Assembly: GCF_000934845.1 (NCBI RefSeq)
Contig: NZ_JXIQ01000071.1
Location: forward strand, 1-64,000
DNA: 64,000 nucleotides
Direction of reading: 5' to 3'
DNA from: Mesobacillus subterraneus
GTDB taxonomy: Bacteria; Bacillota; Bacilli; Bacillales; Cytobacillaceae
Of this stretch, positions 6,398 through 37,275 are shown in pieces. Made by a program: the position numbers and the translations under genes. Positions within the stretch are counted from its first letter, which is position 1. Each line of letters opens with the position of its first letter. Under the pieces are notes generated by a model. It made no database searches. It was not told where the DNA came from and saw only the letters and a list, made by a program, of their open reading frames with translations.

Positions 6398-6419
6398 GTT
6401 CAATCCTCCCCTGTTGCTT

Positions 6420-18213: not shown

Positions 18214-18236
18214 TATTTGTCCCGGTTAAGTTTGAT

Positions 18237-20424: not shown

Positions 20425-22743
20425 GTAGGGTAAGTACCCAGCGCCTTGCTTAATTACTTAAGTAGGTTTCCAAGCACTTCCCTCCAAACCGTACGTACTC
20501 CTCTCAGAGTATACGGCTTTCCATTTATCAATCTAACTTTCCATTGTGTAAGTCATGGTGGCATTTCATACTGCCACCGCAAACGATTGTATTTTCGATT
20601 ATATCCATTGACTGTTTTTTGATTTCCGAGTTCTTTTCCATTCGTTGTTCCGTAAAAAAGGCAATTTCAGGACCATCCTTCGTTATATAACGTATCCCTA
20701 ATTTCCCGTTAATTTTAAATTTTGCAATGATTTTACTAACGGTACTTTTGTATTTATTGGCATACGTTTTAATCATGCTGTATTTCATTGTTTGCCTAAA
20801 AGACTGAAGGACATAAGCATTACTTGCTAGGCGATAGTAATTATATAATCCGACAATCTCCGCATTATACGTACGAAGAATTTCAAGGTCATCATCATGC
20901 ACTAGATAGGGACGATGAACAGGTTTCCAGCCATTGTTACTGCCAATTTTCAATGCACCTAAATCGATGAGTTTTTTGATGTATTTTTCATGAGGAACGA
21001 ATAGTTTTGTTTGATAGGTACACTTTCGTTTCTTTGTGCCATTTGACATTTTCAGTCTGTGCCAATCTCTTACTACTCGTATATCGTATCCTAAAAATCT
21101 AGCGTTTTTCTCACTATGTGTTATCAACGTTTTCTCAGCACTTAATTCCAATTTGAGCTTTTCGGCAAGGTACTCTGTTACATCTATTTTGATTTGTTCA
21201 GCTTCCCTTTTACTACCAATGACACCGATCATAAAACCATCCGCGTACCTTACATATTTCATTCGACGATAGTTTGGGTCAAAAAGGTCTTTGCTATCAT
21301 AGCTTTGCAGTTTTTTGTACAGAGCTTTTAATTCTCCAAGCCTTTCAGCTTTTTCTTCTTTGGTTAGTCGCTCCCAATCACGTTTATTTTTACTTTTACA
21401 GTGGTTAATTTTTAATGCTAGGTTATGATAAACAAGATTATCCCTACGTTTTTCACCTTTCTTAAAGGATTCCGCATATCCTTCAGCATATTTATCTAAT
21501 TCATGCAAATAAATATTTGAAAGTAACGGACTAATGATTCCACCTTGTGGTGTCCCGCTGTAGGTTTTATGAAAAGTCCAATCTTCTACATAACCTGCTC
21601 TTAAGAATTTCCAAATTAAATTAATTAATTTTTCATCCCTAATGCGCTTTCGTAAAAGTCCAACTAATACATGATGGTCGATGTTATCAAAGAAACCTTT
21701 TATGTCCCCTTCAATAAACCATCTCGTACCCGTAAAAGTATTGCGTATTTCTTTTAAGGCAGTGTGACAGCTACGATTTGGTCGAAAACCATGTGAATGA
21801 TTTAAAAATTGAGGTTCGTAGATACTTTCTAAAATTCGCCGAACAACCTCTTGCACTAGTTTATCCTCAAAAGTCGGAATACCAAAAGGTCGTGTTTTAC
21901 TGTTTTTCTTTGGGAGATATGTTCTGCGTGCTGGATGTGGTTGATACGATTGTTCCTTTAGTTTTTCGATTAAACGCTCGATTCTTTCTAAACTCATACC
22001 ATCGATTATGTCATTGTTAACACCTTTTGTGTTGCTCCCTTTATTAGGGTGAAGTTTGGCATAGGCTTCTAGATAGAACTCGATATTATATAGATTTCGA
22101 TACAATCTTTCGAAGATATACGTATCGTTTTGTGCTTTAGAAGTTAGACTGTTTAACACTACTTTTGGATTTCTCATAGAGCCTCTCGCTCCTTTCCAAT
22201 TTTGTATTAAACTGATAAACTACTCTCCTTCGCCATGTAATAGGCTTTCCCTATCTCGGACTACTACGAGAGCTCCGTTGCCATATTGGATATTTAGACA
22301 CATTTGTCATAGCCTTTTGTTTGGCATTCCAACTTAGGCAATCCCCATTTAGACATTTAGAAACATAGCATTTCATAGTTTCGGATGTGACTTTCGCTCT
22401 TCCTTCCATATAGAAGTTGGACGAAGTAGTATCACTTCATGTTCCTCGAAGTATATAAGGAGCATGCATACTTCATACAGCGTGTGTCGCTACCTCCCGC
22501 TGAAGGTCCCCGTGGTCCTCCTTGAGCTATCATTCAGGCAATTCAGCTTTCATCCTTGTCTATGAATTTTCATCTCGCCATTCAGTCGTACCCTGGTAAC
22601 TAGGCAACTTATGGCTTTGTCAACATGCTACACTCCCCGTTCCGTTTCCCTCGCGGATAAGTTGACTGATGATAGGGCTTTGAGTGTGATATTTCCCTAC
22701 TGCTTTGCTAAAGCAGATTTTCTAAATGCCCTTATGGGCGCAC
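20425..22743 (-). mobile_element. Group II intron 1 inside radC
   Basis: 2,319-nt intron. The 5' end GTGCGCCCAT starts at 22743, the 3' end TTACCCTAC is at 20425, and a 34-nt domain V (starts AAGCCGTA, ends TACGGTTT) lies at 20486-20519. The 566 nt from 22178 to 22743 hold no gene and are domains I-III. Phase 0 insertion between the Val of HPREV and the Tyr of YKEAV. It has the same end sequence (TACCCTAC) and domain V type as intron 2, but the proteins differ widely, so it is a relative and not a copy. Confidence 0.93.
20528..22177 (-). CDS. Group II intron reverse transcriptase/maturase with YADG motif (intron 1)
   Basis: 549-residue LtrA-type protein. RT motifs: IPTFEDKLVQEVVRRILE, GFRPNRSCHTAL, WFIEGDIKGFFDNIDH (block 3 Asp present), GTPQGGIISPLLSNIYLHELD intact, an insertion of about 70 residues before block 5, then YVRYADGFMIG (residues 311-314) in place of YADD. 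The X domain (LEILRTYNAEIVGLYNYYRLASN) is intact. The C-terminus IVCGGSMKCHHDLHNGKLD keeps only the last part of an HNH domain, as if the core were deleted in frame. Splicing is likely retained; DNA synthesis is doubtful. Confidence 0.87.
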   Translation of the reverse strand: MRNPKVVLNSLTSKAQNDTYIFERLYRNLYNIEFYLEAYAKLHPNKGSNTKGVNNDIIDGMSLERIERLIEKLKEQSYQPHPARRTYLPKKNSKTRPFGIPTFEDKLVQEVVRRILESIYEPQFLNHSHGFRPNRSCHTALKEIRNTFTGTRWFIEGDIKGFFDNIDHHVLVGLLRKRIRDEKLINLIWKFLRAGYVEDWTFHKTYSGTPQGGIISPLLSNIYLHELDKYAEGYAESFKKGEKRRDNLVYHNLALKINHCKSKNKRDWERLTKEEKAERLGELKALYKKLQSYDSKDLFDPNYRRMKYVRYADGFMIGVIGSKREAEQIKIDVTEYLAEKLKLELSAEKTLITHSEKNARFLGYDIRVVRDWHRLKMSNGTKKRKCTYQTKLFVPHEKYIKKLIDLGALKIGSNNGWKPVHRPYLVHDDDLEILRTYNAEIVGLYNYYRLASNAYVLQSFRQTMKYSMIKTYANKYKSTVSKIIAKFKINGKLGIRYITKDGPEIAFFTEQRMEKNSEIKKQSMDIIENTIVCGGSMKCHHDLHNGKLD

Positions 22744-23229
22744 TACCTCTCTAGGATGAACGATCGAAGCGTTAAGGCTTCCGATGAAAATGGTCTGCTT
22801 GTGGATTACTTGATTTTTGGTATTTAAATACAGGCAGACGAAATGTTCTTGTGTTAAAAAGCGCATATCATTCATGAGGTATTTTGCACCGTCCTCCGGC
22901 GACCGGATGACATAGCGTTCATCGAGGGTATGGTTGGCAATGCGCCTGCCGATTTCAACGGCAGCAAGAACATGGATCGCTTTTGCTTGGCCAATCCCTT
23001 TCATTTGCGTCAGCTCTTCAAGGGTTGCATCCTTTAACATACGCAGCCCCTCAAACTGAGAAAGCATCCGGTTGGCAAGCTGGAGGACTGATTCCTCACG
23101 CGACCCCGTACCTAATAACAGCGCAAGCAATTCATGATTGGAAAGGCTTTGGGGACCGTTTTGAATAAACCGCTCCCTAGGCCGTTCATTTTGAGGGTAA
23201 TCTCTGATCTTTAATGAATGTGTAGACAA
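22744..23229 (-). CDS. radC: radC exon 1 (N-terminal 162 codons)
   Basis: RadC (YsxA) family JAMM protein, named for DNA repair but of unproven function. This exon carries the N-terminal helix-hairpin-helix region (RPRERF, LSNHELLALLLGTG, EELTQMKGIGQAKAIHVLAAVEIGRRI) and the first half of the metal domain up to SIVHPREV, where intron 1 begins at the next base. Start chosen as TTG at 23229, 8 nt after GGGAGG; the longer frame from 23298 would overlap maf and is unlike family members. The three exons together encode 229 residues. Confidence 0.93.
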
Positions 23230-24057: not shown

Positions 24058-25215
24058 TTACTTTCCAATCGCTTGATAGGCAGCTAGAAAGGAGAGGAGG
24101 CTTTTCTCCATTTCTGCAAGCTGATTCGCATCCTTTGTTGTCTGGTACCCAATGAATGATCCGCTTGCCTTTTCCATACTAGCAATGGCTTTTTGGATGT
24201 TCCTATCTTCTATGGACCTATTTGCAATTGTTCCGTGCAGCGCGTTGAAATCTTCTACTTTCTTCCTTTCATCTGGTGACACTTGCGAACCGCTCATGAG
24301 GATCGGATAGATCTCTGAAGACTGCTGAAGGAATGCCGCCTCCTCTGCACTCACTCCAGAGACTTTTCCGCCAGAGATTTCAAAAGGTTTTGCAAAAACC
24401 TCCAGCCCTTGAAGCTTAAGTTCATCTGCCTGTTGTTTCGCTTCCTCGATGCTGCCAGCTGTACGTAAATAGACAGCAAATTGGCCATTTACAGAAAACT
24501 GTTCCGCTGCGATTCCCTGATCTGCAAGCAGCTTTACTCGTTCCTTCGCACGATCCTCAGTCGTAAAAATACCGTTCTGAACGATGAACACAGGGATCGG
24601 TTTCAACTCTAGTTCTTGTCCGCCGCTCGCCTGATCTTTTGCTTGTGAACCTGCTTGTGGTGGATTTGCAGCCGGTGAAGCAGTTGTTCCCTGTTCCGAT
24701 GCGACAAATTTAAGGAACGTAACCCCAAATGCTGTACCGATCAATACTGCCAACAAAACAGCCACAATGATGGTTTTGGAAAACCAGTTGCTTCGCTTTG
24801 TTTTTGTGTTCCAAACGGATATTCCCAGACTCTTCTTTTTCTTTTGCTGCTTTGGGATGAATTTATATTCTTTCACGCTCTGCTGTTCGCCTGAATCAGG
24901 CAAAATCCAGTCAAAATCATCCTCAGTCTTTTCCTGAGCAGCAGCCGTTTCCTTTACCATTGCATCATTATCGAGCGGATACACTTTGCTCCGATCCTCA
25001 CGATGTTCATTTATTGGAACATTGCCACTTCGTTCTGTTTCCTTTTTACTAATTTCTGTCCAATCTTCTGTTTGCCTCTTTTTTTCACTGTCATGTTGCT
25101 GACTCTGGCTGACTTCCTGAACCGGTTGGTGCTTGCCATTAATCTTGATCGTAATCGTTTTTCCATGTTTGTCCAAAACTTGTACCTCCCCCTGCCCGTT
25201 CCTGTATTGCTTCAT
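24058..25215 (-). CDS. spoIIB: Stage II sporulation protein SpoIIB
   Basis: Engulfment and septal-wall protein that helps localise the SpoIIDMP machinery. 385 residues: a hydrophilic N-terminus, one membrane segment (IIVAVLLAVLIGTAFGVTFL, about residues 150-170), a low-complexity linker, then a SPOR domain (FIVQNGIFTTEDRAKERVKLL, FAVYLRTAGSIEEAKQQ, about 205-280) that binds septal peptidoglycan, and a helical tail. Sequence is weakly conserved; the SPOR fold and position between maf and the comC-equivalent locus support the name. Its ribosome site is poor (GATAGG next to the ATG). Confidence 0.88.
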   Translation of the reverse strand: MKQYRNGQGEVQVLDKHGKTITIKINGKHQPVQEVSQSQQHDSEKKRQTEDWTEISKKETERSGNVPINEHREDRSKVYPLDNDAMVKETAAAQEKTEDDFDWILPDSGEQQSVKEYKFIPKQQKKKKSLGISVWNTKTKRSNWFSKTIIVAVLLAVLIGTAFGVTFLKFVASEQGTTASPAANPPQAGSQAKDQASGGQELELKPIPVFIVQNGIFTTEDRAKERVKLLADQGIAAEQFSVNGQFAVYLRTAGSIEEAKQQADELKLQGLEVFAKPFEISGGKVSGVSAEEAAFLQQSSEIYPILMSGSQVSPDERKKVEDFNALHGTIANRSIEDRNIQKAIASMEKASGSFIGYQTTKDANQLAEMEKSLLSFLAAYQAIGK

Positions 25216-25229: not shown

Positions 25230-25263
25230 AAAAAAAAATAACAAGACTTTTGTCGTCTTGTTA
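25230..25263 (-). terminator. Terminator of the type IV pilus operon
   Basis: Hairpin TAACAAGACGACAAAAGTCTTGTTA followed by a T9 run on the minus strand, placed between the PilO-like gene and spoIIB. Confidence 0.88.
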
Positions 25264-25294
25264 TCGAATGCTTTCGTCAATTTTTTCACTAGAT

Positions 25295-26077
25295 TTATTG
25301 AGCAGCCATGCCTGCCCCATCCGCTGATTGGTCCTTCTCTAACAAATTCCCATTTGAACCGTCAAAAGTCGGAAACGGATTGCGCTTATTAGCCGGGGCT
25401 GGGGTTTCGATCTCCATTCTGTCGCCTTTGTCATTCTCCACAGGAAGGTAGAAAGCAGAAACAGTAATAGTGGACAAAAGGATTTCCTTTGAATTGGTTA
25501 CATAATCTGCTTTCTTAGGCCCTTCGAAGTCAATGGTCTCTATCGTGATTTCTCTTTTCGATTCTTCAAGTGCCTGAATGAATTTCTCCAAACCTTGATA
25601 TCCTTTCGCTTCGACTGAAAGGGTTACGAATGTTTTTTGCAGGCCTGTCGGCAAGCTGTCTGGTACTTTCTTAATTCCATTAGTAGATTTTGAATCAGTG
25701 GATGGAAGATTCGAAACCGCTGCTATCTTTTGGTCGGGAGAACTGCTGCTTTCCCCAAACTTCATCAAGGTAATGGTACTGTCAGAAACTACTTCAGCTT
25801 TTTCAAAATTCAGGATCAATTGTTCCGTGAACGGTTCTTTCGGAATAATTTTATATAATTCCGCGACACTCTTTATTTCCCCTGAAGGCCCTGCAGTCAT
25901 TCTCTTCTCGTAGGCAGCCTGTATTTGTTTCTCCGTTTTAAGCAGCTGTTCTTTCTGAATAACCTTATCTTGGAGCGGTTGTAAATAGGTGGCTGAGAGT
26001 AGCCAATACAAAAGTATTACGATGACTGCGCCGAAAATCAGAATCATCATTTCTTTTTTTGAGAATTGGAGATTCAT
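25295..26077 (-). CDS. pilO: PilO-like pilus assembly protein
   Basis: 260 residues with one N-terminal membrane segment (MMILIFGAVIVILLYWLL, about 10-27), then coiled coil (QPLQDKVIQKEQLLKTEKQIQ) and a small alpha/beta domain, the architecture of PilO. Known PilO proteins pair with PilN and align the pilus machine. The ATG overlaps the pilN stop (ATGA). Last gene of the pilus operon. Primary sequence similarity within the family is low, so context carries much of the call. Confidence 0.8.
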   Translation of the reverse strand: MNLQFSKKEMMILIFGAVIVILLYWLLSATYLQPLQDKVIQKEQLLKTEKQIQAAYEKRMTAGPSGEIKSVAELYKIIPKEPFTEQLILNFEKAEVVSDSTITLMKFGESSSSPDQKIAAVSNLPSTDSKSTNGIKKVPDSLPTGLQKTFVTLSVEAKGYQGLEKFIQALEESKREITIETIDFEGPKKADYVTNSKEILLSTITVSAFYLPVENDKGDRMEIETPAPANKRNPFPTFDGSNGNLLEKDQSADGAGMAAQ

Positions 26078-26664
26078 GATTCATTCCCTCCAACTTTTTG
26101 GGATGCCTCTGTAAAGTATTCCCTCTTAAAGTGTATTTCGAATTCTGAATAATAAGTCGGCATGATCTCATTCGAATTACTAGCTTCTCTCACTGCTTCA
26201 ACCGTCAAAATCGAGGCAGTATCGACCCATTTGGAATGCTGGAGGGAACTCAGAAAATACGCAGCCTCTCTTGCAGATTCAAATTCAACCTTTACCCCGA
26301 CGATTCCCTCCCCATTATAATTAAGTGATTGAATGAAGCCTTGTTCTGGAAGCAAAGCAATCAGGCTCCTAAGCAATCTGACTGTATCGGGAGTGGAAGT
26401 TTCAGCCCAGGTGACAGCTTCTTGAAGTCCTTTTGGAGAATCACTGCTTGCTTGATCAGTAATTTTGGTCTGTATGGCTGCATTTAATTGCTGTACAGAT
26501 TGAATCTGCTGATTTACTTTGTTCAAGGACGTTTCATTTACGCGTACCTGGACAAATACTCCAATGAAAACAAGCGCGAGGAGAAACAGGAAAATAAGGG
26601 CAATGGAAAACGAGGAAGACGCTTTATGTTCTTTTTTGGGAAGTAAATTAATGTCTACAAGCAT
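26074..26664 (-). CDS. pilN: PilN-like pilus assembly protein
   Basis: 196 residues starting MLVDINLLPKKEH, the conserved PilN N-terminus (INLLP) that binds PilM. One membrane segment (IALIFLFLLALVFIGVFVQV, about residues 22-41) is followed by a coiled coil and a C-terminal domain. It forms the inner platform with PilO and PilM. Overlaps pilO by 4 nt. Confidence 0.88.
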   Translation of the reverse strand: MLVDINLLPKKEHKASSSFSIALIFLFLLALVFIGVFVQVRVNETSLNKVNQQIQSVQQLNAAIQTKITDQASSDSPKGLQEAVTWAETSTPDTVRLLRSLIALLPEQGFIQSLNYNGEGIVGVKVEFESAREAAYFLSSLQHSKWVDTASILTVEAVREASNSNEIMPTYYSEFEIHFKREYFTEASQKVGGNES

Positions 26665-26665
26665 G

Positions 26666-27649
26666 TTATCCCTCTTTCAATCCAAGCCCTAAAGCCAGAT
26701 GATATTCCCGCGAAACTCCGAAAGCTGCTTCAGGAAGACTTGTTTCGATTGTCGCCACCTGGATTTCAAACCGTCTACTCATTTCGTTTATAATAGTTGT
26801 CATCCTAGGGTGATCGCCATTGACGAGAATTTTAGTGATCGAGTTTTTGCCGTGGGTAAGGGAATATCGATAAAATTCGAGCAATTTGTCGATTTCTTTA
26901 TAGATATCTTCGAATTGAAACACAAATTCGTTCGCATTTCCCGCAAAGGACATCTCCTCTGTTTTCGCGCGTCCTAACTGGACTTCCCAATTAGATTGGA
27001 TCTCAACCGGAATATGCCTCATGAAGATGGGGAATGTCCCTTCAAAAATACACATACTAACCACCCCAATATCAAATTGAATGGTCATTAGCGTTTCCTT
27101 TTCCTCTACAAGACCAAGAAAATGATAGAGTCTATACGAAGCGAGCGGTGAAATATCTGCGGCCACTGGTTTAAGTGATGCTCCTTTTAGAAGATTGGTA
27201 TATTCTAAAACATACTCTTCCGGTGCTGCAACCAAAAGGATCTCCCTTTTGTTTTTCTCCAAACTTAGCGGTACGGTATCAAACACTGGTTCATCAAAAG
27301 GCAAATGAATGCTTGAACCAAACTCGAGATACAGAAACCCGTGAATCTCATCCTCTTTGACATCAACAGGAATGGAAACTTTACGGATGATCACGAGCGA
27401 ATCAGGTACAAGGAATCTCACTTCCCTATTTTTTATCCCCCAATCCGCTATACATTCATCTAAAATGAGCGAAAGAGTTTCGATATCTTGAATTTTGCCT
27501 TCGGAAATAATCCCAGCTGGAAGAAGGCGTTCTCCTTTGGCGGCTATAACAATCGGGTTTCTTTGTTTTACTTCAATATACCGAATCGAATGGTCATTGA
27601 TAACAAGATTCATTACCTTTTTTCGACCGGTAAAGATGGAGAAAGCCAT
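26666..27649 (-). CDS. pilM: PilM-like actin-fold pilus assembly protein
   Basis: 327-residue cytoplasmic protein with the FtsA/PilM actin-like fold: GRKKVMNLVINDHSIRYIEVK at the start, VRFLVPDSLVIIRKVSIP, AADISPLASYRL, and KILVNGDHPRM near the end. PilM binds the PilN INLLP tail and links the platform to the cytoplasmic motors. The ATG at 27649 follows GAAGGAG; an earlier in-frame ATG at 27670 overlaps pilD and has no such site. Confidence 0.88.
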   Translation of the reverse strand: MAFSIFTGRKKVMNLVINDHSIRYIEVKQRNPIVIAAKGERLLPAGIISEGKIQDIETLSLILDECIADWGIKNREVRFLVPDSLVIIRKVSIPVDVKEDEIHGFLYLEFGSSIHLPFDEPVFDTVPLSLEKNKREILLVAAPEEYVLEYTNLLKGASLKPVAADISPLASYRLYHFLGLVEEKETLMTIQFDIGVVSMCIFEGTFPIFMRHIPVEIQSNWEVQLGRAKTEEMSFAGNANEFVFQFEDIYKEIDKLLEFYRYSLTHGKNSITKILVNGDHPRMTTIINEMSRRFEIQVATIETSLPEAAFGVSREYHLALGLGLKEG

Positions 27650-27666
27650 GTTCAAAACTCCTTCAA

Positions 27667-28419
27667 TCATAATCCTGATGTTAACAGCCTCATATACTCT
27701 ACGATCAAATAATCTCCGAAAAAGTAAGCGACAAGTGAGCCTAACGCAATAAATGGACCGAAGGGAATTGTTTGTTTGCGTTTAATAGCTCCAAGAAGAA
27801 GGCCAATGACACCGAAAAACGCTCCAAACAATGTGGATAAGAAGAAGGAAAGCAGCAGCAGTTTCACTCCTAATGCGAAGCCGATAACTGCAAACAGCTT
27901 GATGTCTCCTCCACCCATTCCGCCCTTACTGACAACAGCAATTGCTAGTAAAAGAAAGAAGCCTGCAGCAGCACCCGCGAGTGAATCCCACCACGGAACT
28001 AGAGGAAATAGAAGGCGTTCAAAGAAAAACAGACCCGCAAAAACAATCAGCACTCGATCAGGAATGATCATATAGGCAAGATCGGAAACGGTAATAATAA
28101 CCAGCATAGAAATGAGTGTTAAAGCAATTAGTAACTCCCCACTCCAGCCAACGCTAAATGGTGCGATCGCGAACAGCGCAGCGGTTAATAGCTCAAAAAA
28201 AGGATAAATGGGCGAAATGCGCGCCTTGCATTGGCGGCATTTCCCCCCCTGGATAAAATATGAAAACACCGGGATAAGTTCTAAGAATGTCAATCGATGA
28301 CCACACTTCGGACAAGCAGACCGCGGGGCAACAATTGACTTTCCGTCTGGGACACGCAAGGCTACTACGTTATAGAAAGAGCCCAATACTAGACCGTAAA
28401 GGAACAAAAGAATCTGCAT
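27667..28419 (-). CDS. pilD: Type IV prepilin peptidase (PilD/ComC)
   Basis: Membrane aspartic protease that cleaves prepilin leaders and N-methylates the new N-terminus. 250 residues. The methylase part has both CxxC pairs (CPKCGHRL, CRQCKAR). The two active Asp lie in VSDLAYMIIPD and GGGDIKLF; about eight membrane segments. This is the positional equivalent of B. subtilis comC, between spoIIB and folC. Here it serves the neighbouring pilins and possibly ComG pseudopilins elsewhere. Confidence 0.95.
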   Translation of the reverse strand: MQILLFLYGLVLGSFYNVVALRVPDGKSIVAPRSACPKCGHRLTFLELIPVFSYFIQGGKCRQCKARISPIYPFFELLTAALFAIAPFSVGWSGELLIALTLISMLVIITVSDLAYMIIPDRVLIVFAGLFFFERLLFPLVPWWDSLAGAAAGFFLLLAIAVVSKGGMGGGDIKLFAVIGFALGVKLLLLSFFLSTLFGAFFGVIGLLLGAIKRKQTIPFGPFIALGSLVAYFFGDYLIVEYMRLLTSGL

Positions 28420-28424
28420 CTTTT

Positions 28425-28820
28425 TTATTGTGGTGGATTTGCAAAATTAATTAAATCAGCCTCTGTAATCGGATCTGTGCCTCCCACCGCAGCAGCAGCA
28501 GCCTCATGACCTGCAATGGAGAATTTACCATCAGCATCGATTGTGACAGTGAATGTAGGATCTCCTGATTTTGTTAAATAGGTTCCCAATTTCGTTTCGT
28601 CCCATGGGTCTGGTACATTTGCTGCATTTGCTAATTTCGCAGCATTGATAATTTGCAATGCATCTGCGACTGCGGCATCCTTTTTGGACTTTTCGATAAT
28701 TCCACCAATACTTGGTACAGCAATCGAAGAAATAATTCCCAAAATGACAATTACCCCTAAAAGCTCAACCAATGTAAATCCTCTTTGACTTTTCCACTTC
28801 TTTTTCATGTTTTCTAGCAT
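28425..28820 (-). CDS. Major type IV pilin-like prepilin
   Basis: 131 residues. A short positively charged leader (MLENMKKKWKSQRG) precedes the prepilin motif G/FTLVELLGVIVILGIISSIAVP, with Glu at +5 and the long hydrophobic helix. The small globular part is Ala-rich (AAVADALQIINAAKLANAANV). ATG at 28820 follows AAAGGAG. The 123-nt gap before it (after pilC) contains TATACT at 28881-28886, so a separate promoter could boost this gene; the -35 is poor. Likely the major subunit because it sits alone between pilC and pilD. Confidence 0.9.
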   Translation of the reverse strand: MLENMKKKWKSQRGFTLVELLGVIVILGIISSIAVPSIGGIIEKSKKDAAVADALQIINAAKLANAANVPDPWDETKLGTYLTKSGDPTFTVTIDADGKFSIAGHEAAAAAVGGTDPITEADLINFANPPQ

Positions 28821-28943
28821 GTAATCTCGCTCCTTTTAGGTATTTTTCCCTATGACAATGGCTATATGAATCTATCAATCAGTATAACGGATTCCTTTAA
28901 GAAATAGAATGAAAAATATTGTATTTTGTTTGTATTTGTCGTT

Positions 28944-30149
28944 TCAGCCTACTTGATTAAAAATCTCGAACATTGGCACCATGATGGCCGTGACAATTGT
29001 GCCGACCAGCGCCGCCAATAAAATGATCATGAGCGGTTCAATTAGTGATTTTAATTGATCTGTGCTATGTTCGACTTCTTGCTCATAAAAGTCGGCGATC
29101 TTACTGAGCATAGCGTCCAAAGAACCAGTTTCTTCCCCAATAGCAATCATTTGCGTCACAAGGGGAGGAAAAGCCCAGTGATTTTTCATCGCTTCAGTCA
29201 GTGATTGCCCTTTTTCCAAAGAATCTCTAGACTCTCTTATTACCTTGGCCAGCACTTCATTTTCAACTACCTTTTCGACAATAGCAAGCGCCTGCAGGAT
29301 GGGAACAGAGCTTGCAAACAAGGAACTTAACGTCCGCGAGAATCTAGCTATCGCTCCTTTTTGTAGCAGTTTACCGAAAATTGGAATTTTTAACAATGCG
29401 TAATCCAAATAGTATTTTGTCTGTCGGTTGTTTTTCAGGACCATGAAGAGCAGAGTGATTGCCAACGATAATAAAATAAGTAGCCACCAAAACGATTGCA
29501 CCCACGCACTCACATGGAGGACGAATTTCGTGATCCCCGGAAGCTCGCCGCCAAGATTGGAGAACATGTCAACAAAGGTGGGTACTACTGCCACCAGCAG
29601 GAAAATAACGACGATGATTGCCAGTGCACCGATAACTGCCGGGTAACTTAAAGCGGCGACGATTTTCTTTCTAGTATGATGTTGTTTTTCAAAATGGACC
29701 GCCAATCTTTCTAATGTTTCATCCATATTGCCGCCAGCTTCTCCCGCTTTGATCATATTGATATACATCGCTGAGAAGATTTTACTATGCTTTGCCGCAG
29801 CAAACGATAGCGGATTTCCTTCCCGCAGCTCTTGTTCGATATCAAGAAGCGCTTTCTTTAGCGCTTTGCTCTCGGTCTGGGCAGCAAGAATCTTTGTCGA
29901 TTCCACAACAGAGACACCTGCTTTCAGCAAGGTAGCAAACTGTCTTAAGTAAATGACGAGATGTTGCAGTTTAACTGGATTGCCAATCGTTATTTCTTTT
30001 GTCAACAGCGATTCCTGGACCTCTTGGATCTCAGTCGTTCTGATTCCCTCTGTGCGCAACTTTTCCAGCGCTTCCCTTTTAGTCGCAGCGGAGATCGTTC
30101 CCGAACGCTTTCCTGAACGGTGTCTGCCGGTATAGTGAAATCTAGCCAT
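28944..30149 (-). CDS. pilC: Type IV pilus inner-membrane platform protein PilC
   Basis: 401-residue T2SSF-family protein with two repeated cytoplasmic domains (LRQFATLLKAGVSVVESTKIL and FSRTLSSLFASSVPILQALAIVE) and three membrane segments (about 165-190, 215-235, 370-395). It anchors the motors that extend and retract the pilus. Overlaps the pilT end by 8 nt. Confidence 0.95.
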   Translation of the reverse strand: MARFHYTGRHRSGKRSGTISAATKREALEKLRTEGIRTTEIQEVQESLLTKEITIGNPVKLQHLVIYLRQFATLLKAGVSVVESTKILAAQTESKALKKALLDIEQELREGNPLSFAAAKHSKIFSAMYINMIKAGEAGGNMDETLERLAVHFEKQHHTRKKIVAALSYPAVIGALAIIVVIFLLVAVVPTFVDMFSNLGGELPGITKFVLHVSAWVQSFWWLLILLSLAITLLFMVLKNNRQTKYYLDYALLKIPIFGKLLQKGAIARFSRTLSSLFASSVPILQALAIVEKVVENEVLAKVIRESRDSLEKGQSLTEAMKNHWAFPPLVTQMIAIGEETGSLDAMLSKIADFYEQEVEHSTDQLKSLIEPLMIILLAALVGTIVTAIMVPMFEIFNQVG

Positions 30150-31194
30150 AACTTATACCATAGTTTTCCTGAAGATATGGTTCTGCAGAATCTCTAGTTA
30201 TTATTCCTTTTTGAACAAGCTCCTTCACATTCATTTCGAGGGTATGCATGCCATAGGAGCGAGATGTTTGCATGATGCTGATGATTTGATGGATTTTTTC
30301 ATTCCGGATCAAATTGGCGACTGCCGAGTTATTAATCAGAATTTCTGTTGCTCCGATCCTTCCTTGCTTTGCTATTGTCGGAAATAAGCGCTGCGAAATT
30401 ACCGAAACAAGAACAGAAGCTAACTGAATCCGAATCTGCGCCTGCTGTGTTGGCGGGAAGACATCAATGATTCGATTGATTGTAGCGGGTGCACTTGAGG
30501 TATGCAAGGTTCCGAAAACAAGATGGCCAGTTTCAGCCGCCGTAATCGCTGTTTGAATTGTTTCTAAGTCCCGCATTTCTCCTACCAAAATGACATCCGG
30601 ATCCTGCCGGAGGGCGGCTCGCAATCCGTTGGCAAAGTTATTTGTGTCAAATCCTACTTCGCGCTGATCGATAATCGAGTTTCCATGCTTGTGTAAGTAT
30701 TCAATCGGGTCTTCCAGTGTAATGACGTGCTTCTTCATTGTTTCATTCATATGCCGGATCATTGCTGCAAGAGTCGTAGACTTCCCGCTTCCGGTAGGAC
30801 CCGTTACAAGTATCAATCCTTGTGGCTTTTCCGAAATCTTTTTCAGAATTTCCGGCAGTTTAAGGTCTTCGATCGTTGGAATACTTGTAGGGACGATTCG
30901 AAAGGCCATGGAAACACAGCCCCTTTGATGATACGTGTTCACTCGAAAGCGGGATACACCTGGGATTCCGTAGGAAAAATCAAGCTCTCCTTGTTCCTTA
31001 AACTTTGTCCACATTTTTTCCGGAATGATCGCTTTTGCCATTGCCTCGGTTTCTTCTGGAAGAAGCGATTCGTTGCCATACTTTCTAAGCTCCCCATTCA
31101 CTCTCATAACGGGTGGAACCCCTACTGTTATATGGATATCTGATGCTTTTAGCTCAAAGCCTGCTTGAAGCAGTCGGTCCATTTTATCTTTCAT
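30142..31194 (-). CDS. pilT: Pilus retraction ATPase PilT
   Basis: 350-residue hexameric AAA-like motor. N-terminal PAS-like part (LLQAGFELKASDIHITVGVPPVMRVNGEL), Walker A GPTGSGKSTTLAAM at about 128, Asp box and Walker B (ILVGEMRDLETIQTA), His box (HLVFGTLHTSSA) and the PilT-specific AIR-like helix with DVFP. The T-E-M-R-D form and short length separate it from PilB. A retraction motor implies twitching or other retractable pili; it is not part of the ComG set. Confidence 0.95.
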   Translation of the reverse strand: MKDKMDRLLQAGFELKASDIHITVGVPPVMRVNGELRKYGNESLLPEETEAMAKAIIPEKMWTKFKEQGELDFSYGIPGVSRFRVNTYHQRGCVSMAFRIVPTSIPTIEDLKLPEILKKISEKPQGLILVTGPTGSGKSTTLAAMIRHMNETMKKHVITLEDPIEYLHKHGNSIIDQREVGFDTNNFANGLRAALRQDPDVILVGEMRDLETIQTAITAAETGHLVFGTLHTSSAPATINRIIDVFPPTQQAQIRIQLASVLVSVISQRLFPTIAKQGRIGATEILINNSAVANLIRNEKIHQIISIMQTSRSYGMHTLEMNVKELVQKGIITRDSAEPYLQENYGISYG

Positions 31195-31207
31195 CCGCTC
31201 TCCCCCG

Positions 31208-32869
31208 CTATTCTATACTGGCTACTCGGAGAATTTCCTCAGTGGTAGTCAATCCTTGTTTTACTTTCAATAAGCCATCATCAAGCAAGAAAATTGTTTT
31301 ATTTTTCACGGCGATTTCATGAAGTTTGGTGACCGTTTCTTCATTCATAATTGCTTTTCGAAGTTCTTCATTTACCGCAAGAACCTCATGGACGGCCAGC
31401 CTGCCACGATATCCGGTCATATTGCAGGAAGCACAGCCTCTTCCTCGCCATACGGTAGAAATTTCGAGTCCTCTTTTCGCGAAAATATCCAGTTCGCGTT
31501 TTGTAGGAGAATGCGCTTCGGCACAATCTCGACAGACTTTTCGAACGAGACGCTGAGAAATAACTCCGCTTAAAGAAGATGCGACTAGGAAAGGCTCAAC
31601 CCCCATATCCATTAGCCTCGATACGGAGGTTAAAGCATCGTTCGTATGCAAAGTACTTAGTACCAAATGCCCAGTCAACGAAGCTCTTATTGCTACCTCT
31701 GCTGTTTCCCGATCCCGTATTTCACCGACCATAATAATATTTGGATCCTGCCGAAGAATCGATCGTAAACCGGCTGCAAACGTCATCCCAACGGTCTGAT
31801 TAACTTGTATTTGATTGATCCCTTCAATTTGGTATTCAACTGGATCCTCTATCGTGACGATATTTACTTCTTCACTGTTCAATTTATTTAAAGCTGCATA
31901 TAAAGTCGAAGATTTCCCTGATCCTGTTGGTCCAGTAATCAAAACAATCCCATTTGGCCTGGAAATCATACTAGTGAATCTTTGTAAATGTAAAGGATGA
32001 AACCCTAATTTGTTCAAATCATTTAAGGTGCTGCCCATATCAAGCAGGCGCAGCACAATTTTTTCTCCATAAACAGTTGGAATGGTGGATACCCTCAAGT
32101 CGACTGGATGAAAGTCAAGGTTGACTTTAAACCGGCCATCCTGCGGCACTCGGTTTTCCGTTATATCCAAATTAGCCATAATTTTCAATCTAGCTGTTAA
32201 TACATTCTGCAAATGTTTAGGAAGGACTCTTTCTATTCGCAGCATGCCATCGATCCTATAACGAACTACTACCTTTGTTTCCTGGGGATCGATATGGATA
32301 TCGCTCGCTTTATTTGCCCCTGCATTTGATAGCAATTGATTAACAAGCCTGACAATTGGCGAGTCTGCATCTGTTGCCTTTTCTTCTTTCACCGGTTTCA
32401 TCGCATATTCTTGTCCGAATAATTCTTCAAAATCTTCATCGATATCATAGAATTTATTTATCGCCCGTATGATATCATCCTTAGTCGCAATTGCTGTCTC
32501 TATATGGAAGCCGGTTGATAAGCGCAAATCATCAATCGTGAAAAAGTCCATCGGATCTGCCATCGCAACATAAAGTTTATCTCCGTCTTTTTTTAGAGGA
32601 ATAACCAAATTGCGCTTCGCTGTTTCCTTAGAAATAAGATTAAATAAACTTGTATCAAATGGATATCGGTATAAGCTAATATGCGGGATTCCCAGTTGAA
32701 ATTCCAGCACCTCAATTAATTGCTGCTCTGTTATATAACCTCGATGCAGCAGAGCATCCCCCAACTTCTGTTCTGCTGGTTTATCCTGTAGAGTGATTTG
32801 CAGTTGTTCTTCCGTTAGCAGCCCAGATTCAATCAATAAGTCTCCAAGTCTTCTGCGAGTTTGTTTCAT
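31208..32869 (-). CDS. pilB: Pilus extension ATPase PilB
   Basis: 553-residue motor for pilus assembly. MshEN/GSPII_E N-terminal domains (LGDLLIESGLLTEEQL, about residues 8-150), then the T2SSE ATPase: GPTGSGKSSTLYAA, IEDPVEYQIEGINQIQ, RQDPNIIMVGEIRDRETAEVA, HLVLSTLHTND, and the zinc tetracysteine (CRDCAEAH ... GCASCNMTGYRGR). AGGAGG precedes the ATG. First motor gene of the operon, followed 13 nt later by pilT. Confidence 0.95.
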   Translation of the reverse strand: MKQTRRRLGDLLIESGLLTEEQLQITLQDKPAEQKLGDALLHRGYITEQQLIEVLEFQLGIPHISLYRYPFDTSLFNLISKETAKRNLVIPLKKDGDKLYVAMADPMDFFTIDDLRLSTGFHIETAIATKDDIIRAINKFYDIDEDFEELFGQEYAMKPVKEEKATDADSPIVRLVNQLLSNAGANKASDIHIDPQETKVVVRYRIDGMLRIERVLPKHLQNVLTARLKIMANLDITENRVPQDGRFKVNLDFHPVDLRVSTIPTVYGEKIVLRLLDMGSTLNDLNKLGFHPLHLQRFTSMISRPNGIVLITGPTGSGKSSTLYAALNKLNSEEVNIVTIEDPVEYQIEGINQIQVNQTVGMTFAAGLRSILRQDPNIIMVGEIRDRETAEVAIRASLTGHLVLSTLHTNDALTSVSRLMDMGVEPFLVASSLSGVISQRLVRKVCRDCAEAHSPTKRELDIFAKRGLEISTVWRGRGCASCNMTGYRGRLAVHEVLAVNEELRKAIMNEETVTKLHEIAVKNKTIFLLDDGLLKVKQGLTTTEEILRVASIE

Positions 32870-32884
32870 CTGTTTGCCTCCTGA

Positions 32885-33883
32885 TTATTTGGGTACTTCA
32901 TTCGGTTTCCCCCACAATCTATCTTCCACACTGCCATCTGTTCCTTGCCCAGGATCTTGTTGAGGGTTTTGTTCATTTGGTGCAGGTGCCAGGTTCTCTG
33001 TACTTGCAGTGGGAGTTTCACTCACGGAACTACCATTCGTGTCCGGATTAGCCATCGATTCCGTCCCCAAGGTTCCCTGTTGTGGTGGCAGTGGACTACT
33101 ACTCGGAACGATTCCAATGAGTTCAACTCGATAACTAGGCTGATAAAAATCTTCCGCTATCCATTCTGATTCCATCCATTCCCCCGTAGCTGAAATAGAT
33201 TCGCGATACACTTTGATCAGAAAGCCGGGCTTCCCCTCGGTTTCTACGTATTTCTGACCAGGCTGCAACAGAGGTGTGTAACGCTTGATTGTTCTCGGCT
33301 TAAATTCTTGCTTTTCCGTAAGATTTGCCTCGTATTTGTGAGAAAAGGGGATACCGATAATCGAAATTTCTAATTCCCTCTTGTTCATTGATAGTTTCAT
33401 ATCGTATGGATGCTTATTTGGATTATAAAATGAAAAGTCCATGTTCTTGCTAAAATCGACTTTCGCTTCAAGACCGAGTTGAGTGTTTTTTGGAAGTTCA
33501 CTTCCAATATTTCTTTCGGATATGATAAAATTGGTTGCTAATAATGCCTCGAAAAGAGCTGATGAAACGATGCTAATCTGCTCGGATGATAGTTCAGTCA
33601 GCTTTTTTTCTTCTATGAATTTTTTCATTGAAAAGCTTGTCAGCGGCTCGATCGGCAGCTGAGAAAATGCTTGTACGAATTTTTCCGTATCCGCATACTC
33701 TTCCCCTAACTGTCTCGTAGCAGTGGCAACGACAACGGGCTCTTCTTTTGGCAAAATATCCTGAGAAGTATTCTTTTCAGCAACCGAGCTGAGAACAACA
33801 GGTGACCACTGGGAGAAAGCAATGGTTAATAGCGAGGCAATGGTTAATGCCAGTGTGAATGTATACCTCCTAAACTTGCCCAT
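32885..33883 (-). CDS. VanW-like domain protein in the pilus operon
   Basis: 332 residues with a signal-anchor (FTLALTIASLLTIAFSQW, about 7-24), a VanW-type core (SSALFEALLATNFIISERNIGSELPKNTQLGLEAKVDFS... with NMDFSFYNPNKHPYDMKLSM), a G5-like following part, and a Pro/Ser/Gln-rich tail (about 265-332). VanW domains occur in Gram-positive surface proteins; their activity is unknown. ATG at 33883 follows AAAGGGAGG. It sits between the minor pilins and pilB with no gap, suggesting a role in getting the pilus across the cell wall, an inference only. Confidence 0.78.
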   Translation of the reverse strand: MGKFRRYTFTLALTIASLLTIAFSQWSPVVLSSVAEKNTSQDILPKEEPVVVATATRQLGEEYADTEKFVQAFSQLPIEPLTSFSMKKFIEEKKLTELSSEQISIVSSALFEALLATNFIISERNIGSELPKNTQLGLEAKVDFSKNMDFSFYNPNKHPYDMKLSMNKRELEISIIGIPFSHKYEANLTEKQEFKPRTIKRYTPLLQPGQKYVETEGKPGFLIKVYRESISATGEWMESEWIAEDFYQPSYRVELIGIVPSSSPLPPQQGTLGTESMANPDTNGSSVSETPTASTENLAPAPNEQNPQQDPGQGTDGSVEDRLWGKPNEVPK

Positions 33884-33940
33884 TGACAAACCTCCCTTTT
33901 GATTAGCTTTCATAACATTCCACCAGACTCCATTTTAGAA

Positions 33941-34909
33941 TTATCGGTATGATGCCTCAAGTTTCAGGGTATTTACTTCCCATTTCTCCGTGTCGGATTC
34001 CTCGGAGGGTTTTACAACTTCCTTTGCATAAATTCCACTATAATGCTTCGCGGATGTGATCGTTTCGCAACTTTGTGAAGTAATAGTAACCGTACTCTCG
34101 ATATCGCCATAAAGTCTTACAGTTCCTTCGACACAAAGAAGCCCTTGATTCCCTTTGCCTGAAGGATTCTGTTTTACGTCCATGTTTTCTATATATGCAT
34201 CCCCGTAAACAACGATATTGCTATTGCTTTCAATAAAGGACTCTCCTTTGAGATATAGGTTGCTCTCAAATGCCACTTCCGTATTCGCACGCGCGGTTAA
34301 ACCATTCTTAAAATAAATGTCCTTTTCAAAGACCGGATTATGGTTAGAGGAAATCGTCAGATGAGAATCATACAGAATAGGTGTTAAAAAAGGACCATTG
34401 GAAGTAATTTCATCTTCCTCGCTCACTTCCATTCCCTTGTCCGGCTCGGGGAATTCGCCATTCCCTTCTCCTCGTGCGATCTTTAACTCCGCATTTATTC
34501 TCCTTTCTTGATAGTCTTCGGCAATCCCAATGGAAGTAAAAACAATCTTTATTACCTCTTGCTCCTCATTGTTAGTAGCTAAAATATCCACATCTTCCAT
34601 TTTGTATAATGGGTACGAACTATCCTTGTTTATTGGGAAAGCAATCCCTGACGGAAGTGCAGTTTGTAGCAGCTTTTCCGTATCCGATAAGGATGCCTCC
34701 TTATTTTCAGCTAAAATAGCAGCCGTCGCACGTTTCATATGGGCTACCCCCATTTCCGCAAGATTTGTCGCTTTTATCCCACTTCCGGTATATGCTATTT
34801 GTTTCGCATTATTGGCTTCCATTCCCATTAATGTAATTCCGATAATTGAAAAGACAGTCATCATCAGCAATACGATTAGCAATACAGACCCTTGTTCGTT
34901 CTTACTCAT
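33941..34909 (-). CDS. PilX-like minor pilus protein
   Basis: 322 residues starting MSKNEQGSVLLIVLLMMTVF, the N-terminal pattern of PilX-type proteins (a short leader, G, then a hydrophobic helix without Glu at +5). The long C-terminal part is rich in Asn, Ser and beta-strand patterns (residues 170-310, repeated DSHLTISSN, EKDIYFKNG, FESNLYLKG), like a bactofilin- or filament-type beta stack. ATG at 34909 overlaps the previous gene's stop. A pilus tip or surface protein is the best guess. Confidence 0.72.
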   Translation of the reverse strand: MSKNEQGSVLLIVLLMMTVFSIIGITLMGMEANNAKQIAYTGSGIKATNLAEMGVAHMKRATAAILAENKEASLSDTEKLLQTALPSGIAFPINKDSSYPLYKMEDVDILATNNEEQEVIKIVFTSIGIAEDYQERRINAELKIARGEGNGEFPEPDKGMEVSEEDEITSNGPFLTPILYDSHLTISSNHNPVFEKDIYFKNGLTARANTEVAFESNLYLKGESFIESNSNIVVYGDAYIENMDVKQNPSGKGNQGLLCVEGTVRLYGDIESTVTITSQSCETITSAKHYSGIYAKEVVKPSEESDTEKWEVNTLKLEASYR

Positions 34910-35318
34910 CCGAAATTCCCCTTGCAAATATCGTTCTTAATGTATAGGATTGATCTCCTTTTTCTATCTTCAAAGTAATTTCAAGAGGCAGATTAGAGTC
35001 AATTAGTAATGGTTCACTTGTATAAGGATGATTTTCATAGACTATGTTAGCTAGATAGCGATAGTTTTTTGAAATCGTCATTCCATCAATTACTACCTCA
35101 TCCGCTTTTATTTCTAATTGATAAGCAGGATTTTTCAAATGCTTGTTACGGATTGCTTCGGCAATAAGCTCGGCTTCCTGCTGAAGGAATGCTTCCTTTT
35201 TACTCGTGTCTCCCTGTTTGATCCCGCTATGAAAAATAGCGTATGCAAGTATGAGGACTACGCTCGTTATTGTCAGGGCTGCTAATAATTCTACAAGGGT
35301 AAACCCATTTCTCTTCAT
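34902..35318 (-). CDS. Type IV prepilin-like protein
   Basis: 138 residues beginning MKRNGFTLVELLAALTITSVVLILAY, a textbook prepilin motif with Glu at +5. The remainder fits a small pseudopilin/PulG- or ComGF-like minor subunit. ATG at 35318 follows AAGGAG that overlaps the previous gene's stop. Second gene of the pilus operon. Confidence 0.85.
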   Translation of the reverse strand: MKRNGFTLVELLAALTITSVVLILAYAIFHSGIKQGDTSKKEAFLQQEAELIAEAIRNKHLKNPAYQLEIKADEVVIDGMTISKNYRYLANIVYENHPYTSEPLLIDSNLPLEITLKIEKGDQSYTLRTIFARGISDE

Positions 35319-35325
35319 AACCGGT

Positions 35326-35757
35326 TCACTCCTTGTACCCATAGGTTTCATAAACATTTTTATATGTATCGTTCCGTTTCTCTTGAATCGAAACTACTAT
35401 TAAATTCAAATCCATTGGCAAATTTTTTTGAAAGGAATTCGCTTGCTTTATTACTACAACAGGATAATACTCTTTTTCTCCTACTGTTAAAAAAAACCGC
35501 TCGCTAGAAGCAAAACTTGTGCCATATAATTGATTCCATTCTTCGACTGTTACATCGGCTGTATATGGAGATTTTTTAATAATATGCAAAATTTCCTGAC
35601 TAAGCTGGGCAGCCGCACTTCTGCTTTCATTATCCGAATTGAACATCTTTGCCTGTAAAAAAAAGCCCGCAAAAGAAAGGAGTACGATCGAAAGCAATGC
35701 GACTCCAAGTGTAACTTCTACTAAATGATACCCTTGCTGGTTTATTCTTTTCGCCAT
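35326..35757 (-). CDS. Type IV prepilin-like protein (first gene of pilus operon)
   Basis: 143 residues: leader MAKRINQQG, then YHLVEVTLGVALLSIVLLSFAGFFL with Glu at +5 of the mature protein. Tyr at +1 in place of Phe is less usual. It resembles PilV/GspI-like minor pilins. ATG at 35757 follows AAGGAG. A TATAAT box lies upstream at 35799-35804 with no good -35, a candidate operon promoter in the 136-nt gap after folC. Confidence 0.83.
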   Translation of the reverse strand: MAKRINQQGYHLVEVTLGVALLSIVLLSFAGFFLQAKMFNSDNESRSAAAQLSQEILHIIKKSPYTADVTVEEWNQLYGTSFASSERFFLTVGEKEYYPVVVIKQANSFQKNLPMDLNLIVVSIQEKRNDTYKNVYETYGYKE

Positions 35758-35798
35758 CGGCCGCTCCTTCTTTCGCAGCATCCTCATACTTTCTTCCT

Positions 35799-35804
35799 AT
35801 TATA
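35799..35804 (-). promoter_or_regulatory. Possible -10 box for the pilus operon
   Basis: TATAAT on the minus strand 42 nt before the first pilin start. The sequence 17 bp further upstream (TGTCAT) is a poor -35, so an activator or an alternative factor may be involved. The strand has no other signal in this 136-nt gap. Confidence 0.35.
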
Positions 35805-35893
35805 CTCGCAAACGACAAAATATGACACTATGCATCTGCAGATCCATTCCAGGAAAATCTCCTTTTTTTTGCTGAATGAGCCGGATAAAATGA

Positions 35894-37207
35894 TCAATTA
35901 TTTTTCAACCATTTTACGAGAAAGGGCTTTGCCTCTGATAAAAAATAGAGAGAGCCTGTGACAATCAACATGTCTGCTTGATCCAATTCATTTATTTTCC
36001 TTTGAAGAAAGTCCTGATAGTCTGCTGCAATCCTTTTGTTTCCTTTAGTGCTTCCGGCATCGATTAAATCCTTCGCTGAAGCTGCACGCGGAAAATCAAA
36101 TGTGGTAAAAATCAATTGATCGGCCACCTCTTCAAGCGTTGCAATCATCTTATCCAATTTTTTGTCTTTTAGAGCTGCAAAGAGAATGCTAATATTTTTA
36201 TCGGCAAAGCGAGCGTTTATTTCACTTGCCAGTGCCTTTATTCCTTCTTCATTATGTGCGCCATCGATCAGGACGAGTGGATCTTCACTTAAAATCTCAA
36301 GCCGGCCAGGCCAGTATGCTAGTATCAGGCCTTCCCGGATATGCTCTTCCTCGATTAGAAATGAATAGTAATTAGCAAGGACCTGGCTTGCCATTACTGC
36401 ACATGCAGCATTTTCTACTTGATGCGCACCGATCATCGATGTTTTCAGCTCATGAATTTGTCCGAACATACTTGTAAATGTAAACTGTTCTCCGCGCTCT
36501 AGAGGTTCTTTTGAACTTGCCGCAAAATCTTCTCTGAGGTGGTATAGAGATGACTTACAATCAAACGCTTTTTTTCGTATCACCTCGAGTGCTTCCGGCT
36601 GCTTTACGCCAGTAATAACGCTTACCCCGTTCTTGATGATGCCTGCCTTTTCGAAAGCAATCTCTTCATAGGACTCCCCAAGGATCGCTGTGTGATCGAG
36701 TCCAATGCTGGTGATGATCGAAAGCAGCGGATGGATCACATTTGTAGAGTCGAACCTGCCGCCCAAGCCTACTTCATAGAGGACGACATCAACAGGGGAC
36801 ATCTTGGCAAAATAATAGAAGGACATCGCAGTAATTACTTCAAATTCAGTCGGCCCGCCCAACTCGCTTCGATCCAGTTCATCGGCAAGCGGCTTGATCA
36901 CATTCGCCAGTTCAATCAGTTCAGCATCACTGATTGGCTGCCCATTCACGCTGATCCGCTCATTGAATTGTTCGAAATAGGGAGAGGTAAAGGTGCCGAC
37001 CCGGTATCCTGCAGTCTGCAGGATAGCGCGCAGAAAGGTGACAGTAGACCCTTTTCCGTTTGTGCCGCCGACATGTATCGTTTTGATCCGTCTTTCGGGA
37101 TGCTCCAGTCTTTCCAGCATCCATGCCATTCTAGAAAGGCCTGGCTTGATTCCTAATCTTAGTCTTGTATGAATCCAATCAATTGCTTGTTCATATGTAT
37201 CAAACAT
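35894..37207 (-). CDS. folC: Folylpolyglutamate synthase / dihydrofolate synthase
   Basis: Adds glutamate to (dihydro)folates, and in many bacteria also makes dihydrofolate. 437 residues: P-loop HVGGTNGKGST (about 45-55), EVGLGGRFDSTNV, SIGLDHTAILG, and the Mur-ligase C-terminal domain (VLIDGAHNEEGIKAL). ATG at 37207 lies 9 nt after AGAGGTG. It lies between valS and the pilus operon as in B. subtilis (folC next to comC). Confidence 0.96.
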   Translation of the reverse strand: MFDTYEQAIDWIHTRLRLGIKPGLSRMAWMLERLEHPERRIKTIHVGGTNGKGSTVTFLRAILQTAGYRVGTFTSPYFEQFNERISVNGQPISDAELIELANVIKPLADELDRSELGGPTEFEVITAMSFYYFAKMSPVDVVLYEVGLGGRFDSTNVIHPLLSIITSIGLDHTAILGESYEEIAFEKAGIIKNGVSVITGVKQPEALEVIRKKAFDCKSSLYHLREDFAASSKEPLERGEQFTFTSMFGQIHELKTSMIGAHQVENAACAVMASQVLANYYSFLIEEEHIREGLILAYWPGRLEILSEDPLVLIDGAHNEEGIKALASEINARFADKNISILFAALKDKKLDKMIATLEEVADQLIFTTFDFPRAASAKDLIDAGSTKGNKRIAADYQDFLQRKINELDQADMLIVTGSLYFLSEAKPFLVKWLKNN

Positions 37208-37275
37208 CTTATAACACACCTCTATTTAAGATGAAGACGAACCAAAAAAATAGTTCGTCTCCAAAGTATCCTATA

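Follow-up and report, generated by a model that had tools for sequence, protein, structure and literature searches.

Why does the interval between folC and spoIIB, which in Bacillus subtilis houses comC, hold a set of type IV pilus genes in Mesobacillus subterraneus, and does the one arrangement derive from the other? The question is raised by positions 1 to 64,000 of contig NZ_JXIQ01000071.1 from assembly GCF_000934845.1 (the window, meaning the whole 64,000-nucleotide stretch analysed), in which folC and spoIIB are separated by twelve pil-locus genes, each encoded on the minus strand and together running from 35787 to 25295 in the list of open reading frames (ORFs). Their order is three prepilin-like genes, vanW-G5, pilB, pilT, pilC, pilA, pilD, pilM, pilN and pilO. 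We conclude, with a probability of roughly 0.78, that this is the type IVa pilus (T4aP) operon of a monoderm bacterium, that its peptidase PilD also serves the ComG competence system, and that the locus is an ancestral one that was lost many times, comC being a retained pilD. Gene content, a single peptidase, a shared location, gene-tree placement and a series of decaying loci are the observations that carry this reading. The comparison extended to about 170 related genomes, and the order survey to 140 genomes drawn over the Bacillales; genomes are labelled G and loci L below, and the named loci are the best 80 of 171, ranked by closeness to the window PilT.

The prepilin peptidase and comC

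PilD (27667–28419, minus strand; PF06750 and PF01478) is the sole A24 peptidase found in the genome, which has one A24_N match and one Peptidase_A24 match of any kind. The same genome carries a comG operon on another contig (C66), where ComGA, ComGB, ComGC, ComGD and ComGF exceed their NCBIfam cut-offs. Since no other A24 peptidase was found, PilD must process the ComG prepilins unless a further peptidase is hidden in a gap of the draft, and pilus and competence should thus share it. A single peptidase is also the rule among relatives: the 61 nearest genomes all have one A24_N match and no more, as do 138 of the 140 order genomes (G088 has none, G122 two). PilD groups with the comC of relatives that have comC only and occupies the same locus, as expected of a ComC orthologue. 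The preliminary description, written from the sequence alone, had the operon standing in place of comC. This part of it has to be given up: the sole A24 peptidase found is itself the comC orthologue, at the same place, so nothing replaced comC.

Having genes for retractable-type pili is usual in the order, a family search finding pilT in 101 of the 140 genomes. In all but one of these (G073) pilD lies within 10 kb of pilT, and in 84 of the 101 no more than 30 kb of the same contig separate it from folC. Of the 39 genomes without pilT, 28 have comC no more than 8 kb from folC. According to the available text of PMC7232415, comC of B. subtilis is next to spoIIB, with folC and maf on either side, and B. 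anthracis has it at another place; both placements, near folC and away from it, occur in our survey. The preliminary description had proposed a survey of the folC–spoIIB interval and had suggested that comC may be a relic of a pil operon in relatives, an idea that the survey favours. The folC–spoIIB location is probably ancestral to the sampled order.

A tree of PilD and ComC (98 rows, 39 of them labelled comC-only; support as Shimodaira–Hasegawa-like approximate likelihood ratio, SH-aLRT) requires the state, pil or comC-only, to change at least 23 times. It takes in 28 of the 80 named loci and omits two comC-only genomes (G058 and G069); two operons without pilT (G120 and G149) were labelled pil, and G047 and the partial relics com. 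In 10 of 11 genera of mixed state, each with one pil-bearing row, comC pairs with the operon PilD of its own genus, nine times with SH-aLRT of at least 80 (g18, 99; g57, 91; g61, 15; g65, 97; g47, 97; g56, 100; g37, 99; g82, 83; g28, 96; g68, 93). Because counts of changes cannot separate gain from loss, we draw the direction of change from other facts, namely relics, a GGDEF gene and families outside the order.

Relics are found in nine of 41 pilT-less loci, which retain further pil genes or pieces of them. Two loci, G120 (L182) and G149 (L185), keep an operon without pilT and show no vanW in view; they may be natural examples of pili that have no retraction ATPase. G047 (L140) retains vanW, a 136-residue ORF whose best match is pilT, and pilC to pilO, and has no pilB. 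Its congener G092 (L203) has pilT in its operon, a difference that looks like recent loss. The remaining loci hold vanW, pilD, pilM, pilN and pilO (G061), pilM in two ORFs with pilN (G135), a shortened pilM with a prepilin-like piece (G132), pilM (G034), a 56-residue pilO-like piece (G106) or a pilin-like gene (G118). Not counted among the nine is G148, where ORFs weakly resembling pilB (52 bits) and pilC (24 bits) lie 3 kb from comC. The second fact is a gene for a GAF-GGDEF protein that adjoins folC in relatives: in 13 of the 41 pilT-less loci it lies between folC and comC, the same spot as the gap between folC and operon in relatives that have one.

Outside the order, a class-wide sample of 121 genomes was searched for vanW relatives (threshold 1e-8), and 19 of the 23 genomes outside the order with such a relative were read, as 20 stretches. 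folC lies upstream of the operon in six of these stretches, all from family f49 and five with the GGDEF gene, and maf directly follows pilO in three, all from family f61. The same locus is thus seen in two further families.

These facts bear on the opposite direction of change, in which a lone comC at folC was the starting state and many lineages independently acquired a pil operon around it. Transfer of pil operons does happen: a copy in Paenibacillus thiaminolyticus is described, in the portion of PMC9765702 at hand, as sitting on a mobile element, and G122 combines the arrangement folC-GGDEF-comC-spoIIB with another operon, of different gene order and with a pilD of its own. Four operons (G024, L149; G029, L150; G122, L196; G123, L200) share that other order, pilA, pilD, prepilins, pilM, pilN and pilO followed by pilB, pilT and pilC; their PilDs form one clade (support 100), and in G024 and G123 the differently ordered operon occupies the folC–spoIIB site itself. 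Repeated insertion would, however, have to produce an identical gene order at one site around a resident peptidase many times, whereas partial operons and pieces beside comC are what decay leaves; the grouping of operon PilD with comC of the same genus and the presence of the locus in two outside families argue against it as well. We consider insertion improbable, at something under one chance in ten. Loss from an ancestral locus is the reading we prefer, and these comparisons indicate that comC of B. subtilis is probably the remainder of a pil operon after repeated loss.

Several observations weigh against the preferred reading. The genome is a draft of 208 contigs, and in its comG operon ComGE misses its cut-off (28.9 of 49) and no family match was obtained for the seventh ORF. 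In 17 of the 101 pilT-bearing genomes pilD was not shown near folC (15 farther away or on another contig, two without a folC over threshold), and in 11 of the 39 pilT-less genomes comC is away from folC (eight with the two genes on different contigs, two with them far apart, and G088 with no peptidase match). One mixed genus (g45) is not paired in the tree, and the pair G080/G147 has a support of only 15. The search outside the order was conditional on a vanW relative, and ancestry for the whole class is read from two families. The four differently ordered operons look imported, so gains occur too. Sharing of the peptidase is not universal in Bacilli either, since in Streptococcus sanguinis comC is a distant loner, apart from the pil locus, as far as the consulted part of PMC10790768 goes. 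To these points should be added the identities of FolC, the possible relaxation of selection and the score of PilB, which are taken up below.

Origin and state of the locus in this genome

The preliminary description had named recent import of the cluster from unrelated bacteria as the finding that would overturn it; we looked for this and did not find it. The guanine-plus-cytosine fraction of the operon is 0.42, that of the window 0.435. Among the named loci, the distances of six pil-locus proteins follow those of maf and radC (rho 0.54–0.69). No named locus is closer than L006 for maf, radC, pilB, pilT, pilC, pilM and vanW, or than L005 for pilD; two others (L011 and L012) are among the closest by maf and radC and are not by the pil proteins shown. 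Of the 20 other genomes of the genus, 18 have an intact pilT; in G004 the gene is split, and none was seen in G010, an assembly 66% complete. The PilD tree places the species within its genus. An operon acquired recently from outside the genus, displacing comC, would have parallels in G024 and G123, which carry the foreign-type operon at this very locus. Because composition fits and distances follow maf and radC, such an import is unlikely, indeed the least probable of the alternatives considered here, and we rejected it on those two grounds. The operon is native to its genus and intact.

A native operon could still have been exchanged, in some variant, between species of the genus, an idea compatible with the preferred reading. 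PilT is 94, 94 and 89% identical to its counterparts in G012–G014 and 78–82% identical to those of the other 15 same-genus genomes. FolC identities lie at 75–83% with one outlier at 43%, and show no such split (rho −0.42, p 0.09, n = 17). Since the two proteins disagree, exchange of either the pil locus or folC is possible. The window has its minor-pilin genes on the same strand as pilB, an arrangement seen in six of the 69 named loci in which these genes are in view, the nearest relatives L005–L007 among them. Against exchange of the pil locus, distances agree over the wider set, and folC may itself have been exchanged: that of G008 (contig C8, 46291–47517) encodes a protein just 43% identical to the window FolC. 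On balance we regard exchange within the genus as possible and rather doubtful.

Is the operon then decaying, and without a working pilus? The preliminary description called it complete, which holds for its twelve intact genes and fails for what its nearest relatives have in addition: the GGDEF gene beside folC, a small membrane-protein gene that precedes vanW in L005, and about 115 residues, one domain, of the VanW protein. Of 30 named loci whose stretch reaches folC, 23 have the GGDEF gene; so do 11 of the 12 other genomes of the genus that were searched, the exception being G008. A search of the window gave no remains of it. The missing cyclase and VanW-protein domain could reflect relaxed selection. 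Yet the twelve genes all have open frames, the catalytic motifs were found, and PilB, PilT and PilC are 91–93% identical to those of the nearest species; the VanW protein of Metabacillus fastidiosus (L060) is similarly short, seven of the 30 loci also lack the GGDEF gene, and nine GGDEF matches, one of them partial, remain elsewhere in the genome. Decay to a non-working state therefore seems to us unlikely, at perhaps one chance in eight.

Genes of the operon and its neighbours

The genes, order and strand given in the preliminary description for the interval between spoIIB and folC were borne out by the ORF list and family searches, and its view of the operon as one for a retractable-type T4aP is supported by a PilT over its cut-off and by the presence of pilM, pilN and pilO. 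The extension ATPase gene pilB (31208–32869, minus strand, as are all genes below) encodes a protein with PF00437 (2e-136) and an MshEN-type N terminus (PF05157, 3.1e-22; NF053729, 53.3 bits against a cut-off of 38). It scores 612 bits with TIGR02538, under the equivalog cut-off of 675.65, and its name thus rests on domain content and context. PilT, the retraction ATPase (30142–31194), reaches 483 bits with TIGR01420 (cut-off 319.1). Walker A, Walker B and His-box patterns were found in both ATPases, and cysteine pairs and aspartate motifs in PilD; we take these to be the functional residues of motors and peptidase. A four-cysteine pattern of guessed spacing gave no match in PilB, though the alignment shows CRDC and CASC. 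The platform protein PilC (28944–30149) matches PF00482 over two stretches (2.7e-67), and the candidate major pilin PilA (28425–28820) matches N_methyl (4.6e-9) and TIGR02532 (29.8 bits, cut-off 16.3).

Of the alignment proteins, PilM (26666–27670) matches PF11104 (1.4e-16) and PilN (26074–26664) is barely over the cut-off for PF05137 (23.8 against 22.8 bits); the Pfam matches of PilC, PilD and PilM exceed their cut-offs as well. PilO (25295–26077) is by sequence the weakest call, with a T2SSM_b match of only 0.03 and nothing at 0.01, and was identified by family profile and fold. A profile of 29 PilO-family members hit the PilO of the Myxococcus pilus machine (3jc8) at 5.3e-6; 14 of the 29 match PF04350 and 13 the related T2SSM family. 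The first four fold matches of a PilO model of moderate confidence (mean predicted local distance difference test, pLDDT, 70) are PilO chains of 3jc8, 2rjz (twice) and 5uvr.

The extension ATPase, platform, prepilin peptidase and pilins, together with PilT and PilM, PilN and PilO, identify a T4aP operon; comGA–comGG are absent from it, the comG operon lying separately on its own contig. A pseudopilus of the type II secretion kind would be in keeping with the matches of PilC, PilB and PilA to Gsp families (the best match of PilC is GspF) and with the T2SSM matches among PilO relatives; pilT is present, however, as it is in most genomes of the order survey, and PilO structures head the fold search. 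We rejected the secretion reading on pilT and the PilO fold, and judge it very improbable.

Three prepilin-like genes head the operon. The first (35326–35787) has a GspI/PilV-like place, conserved in relatives, and a prepilin-like leader motif; its likelier start is 35757 rather than 35787, just past a Shine-Dalgarno-like stretch, giving the leader MAKRINQQG followed by YHLVE, and the Pfam search gave no match for it. The second (34902–35357) matches N_methyl (PF07963, 8.8e-8) and has GFTLVE. The third (33941–34927), a large protein without Glu5 that was aligned with 13 relatives, has matches under cut-off to PilX_N (0.027) and ComGG (0.0014). Presumably it is of the GspK/PilX type, whose subunits likewise lack Glu5.

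Upstream lies folC (35894–37219; Mur ligase domains) and downstream spoIIB (24058–25215; SPOR domain), which adjoins maf. A promoter-like site (35799–35828, minus strand; 10 of 12 positions matching) precedes the operon and a terminator-like hairpin with a T run (25237–25265, minus strand) follows pilO; both are consensus matches only, and scans for the two kinds of signal were overall no richer than shuffled sequence (20 against 22.9 and 11 against 10.4). Elsewhere in the window, radC is apparently split twice by group II introns with reverse transcriptases (17892–23229; reverse transcriptase ORFs 20528–22177 and 18237–19760; Rfam Intron_gpII at 20425–20521 and 18030–18126), so that its middle coding piece would be just about 63 bases (20362–20424), and a T-box leader (RF00230; 39976–40217) lies upstream of valS.

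VanW-G5, c-di-GMP and comparison with known systems

The fourth gene (32885–33913) encodes a membrane-anchored protein with VanW (PF04294, 8.2e-8) and G5 (PF07501, 5.5e-6) domains. vanW is present in all 80 named loci and directly 5′ of pilB in 79. In the class-wide sample a relative was found in 29 of the 121 genomes; 19 of the 20 stretches outside the order have it beside pilB or the pil operon, and the twentieth is a second copy in G180. Some pil operons show no vanW (for example those of G050 and G083). The L006 protein was modelled at a mean pLDDT of 82, as a helix at the N terminus, a confidently predicted domain, the VanW region and, by fold, a G5 domain. The domain at about residues 43–165 had no clear match in a fold search of the PDB. 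Two of the 29 PilO relatives end in a C-terminal LysM domain (L013:15264–16262 and L078:15476–16546), which might link the alignment complex directly to the cell wall. G5 and LysM are domains that bind wall sugars. Taken together, the two kinds of domain suggest that these proteins may contact peptidoglycan. In some relatives with divergent minor-pilin genes, the space between these and vanW holds genes for a PRC-barrel protein and for an acidic membrane protein that fits no known family (L018:4755–6050 and 6183–6938; L154:10757–13219; L014:4676–6901); no remains of the PRC-barrel gene were found in the window search.

With an ad hoc pattern, 78 of 81 PilBs show at least one MshEN motif and 60 of the 81 show two. 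Pili of other bacteria are regulated through MshEN ATPases, as cited in the consulted text of PMC9765702, and control of the present PilB by cyclic di-GMP (c-di-GMP) may be expected. In the machine that we predict, PilD would cleave the prepilins, those of ComG among them, and PilB would polymerise PilA on the PilC platform, with the MshEN domain making extension dependent on c-di-GMP. PilT would depolymerise the filament, PilM, PilN and PilO would align the machine, and the three minor pilins would start or cap the filament. VanW-G5, anchored in the membrane with its G5 domain on the wall side, would probably guide or anchor the filament in peptidoglycan, a task for which neither PilP nor PilQ is available in a Gram-positive cell. 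The operon would then have been lost many times, the B. subtilis type of comC being its pilD, kept for competence. Piliation, retraction, twitching and c-di-GMP control are all predicted from the genes, as are the function given to VanW-G5 and the idea that competence is why pilD was kept.

More tentatively, and at somewhat less than even odds, VanW-G5 would be an unrecognised core T4aP part of Bacilli, a membrane-anchored wall-side sleeve or anchor with a role like that of PilP, PilQ or TsaP, which together with the diguanylate cyclase beside folC made up an ancestral c-di-GMP-controlled locus whose last survivor in B. subtilis is comC. VanW-G5 is in any case a candidate for a missing part of Gram-positive pilus machines; among the open-access matches listed, the accessible text gave no report linking VanW or G5 to pili.

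Loci of this kind were already known, since Imam et al. (2011) reported pil operons alongside com operons in Geobacillus and Bacillus sp. NRRL B-14911, with pilT in Gram-positive pil operons, as given in the available part of PMC3244431. The present genome resembles those in having a pil and a com operon within one Bacillales genome, with pilT. B. infantis (L029), to which we take NRRL B-14911 to belong, has the same pil-locus layout as the window, and the two operons are probably of one type. The main text of PMC3244431 does not contain the words folC or Anoxybacillus, and the portion of it examined mentions neither VanW nor a cyclase nor comC as a remnant; nor was comC described as a remnant of a pil operon in the portions available of the open-access matches listed, which include PMC3244431, PMC6668835, PMC10790768, PMC9765702 and PMC7232415. 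The operon of P. thiaminolyticus strain Mbale shares an MshEN-type PilB, PilT, PilC, PilD, PilM, PilN and PilO with the window, and, according to the same partial text of PMC9765702, differs in lying on a mobile element where the window has an inherited chromosomal locus.

With the T4aP of Myxococcus and Pseudomonas (3jc8 and 2rjz) the operon has PilB, PilT, PilC, PilM, PilN and PilO in common. The parts list of diderms includes PilP, PilQ and TsaP (in part PMC9765702). None of these has a gene among the twelve of the window, which have VanW-G5 instead. The Com pilus of B. subtilis and Streptococcus, made up of eight components without PilT, PilM, PilN or PilO in the text available from PMC10790768, uses a prepilin peptidase of the same family, and here one PilD probably serves both filaments. 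If this reading is true, piliation and DNA uptake are genetically coupled in pil-bearing Bacillales through one peptidase for two filaments, and the position of comC apart from comG in B. subtilis is explained as that of a pilus-operon remnant kept for competence.

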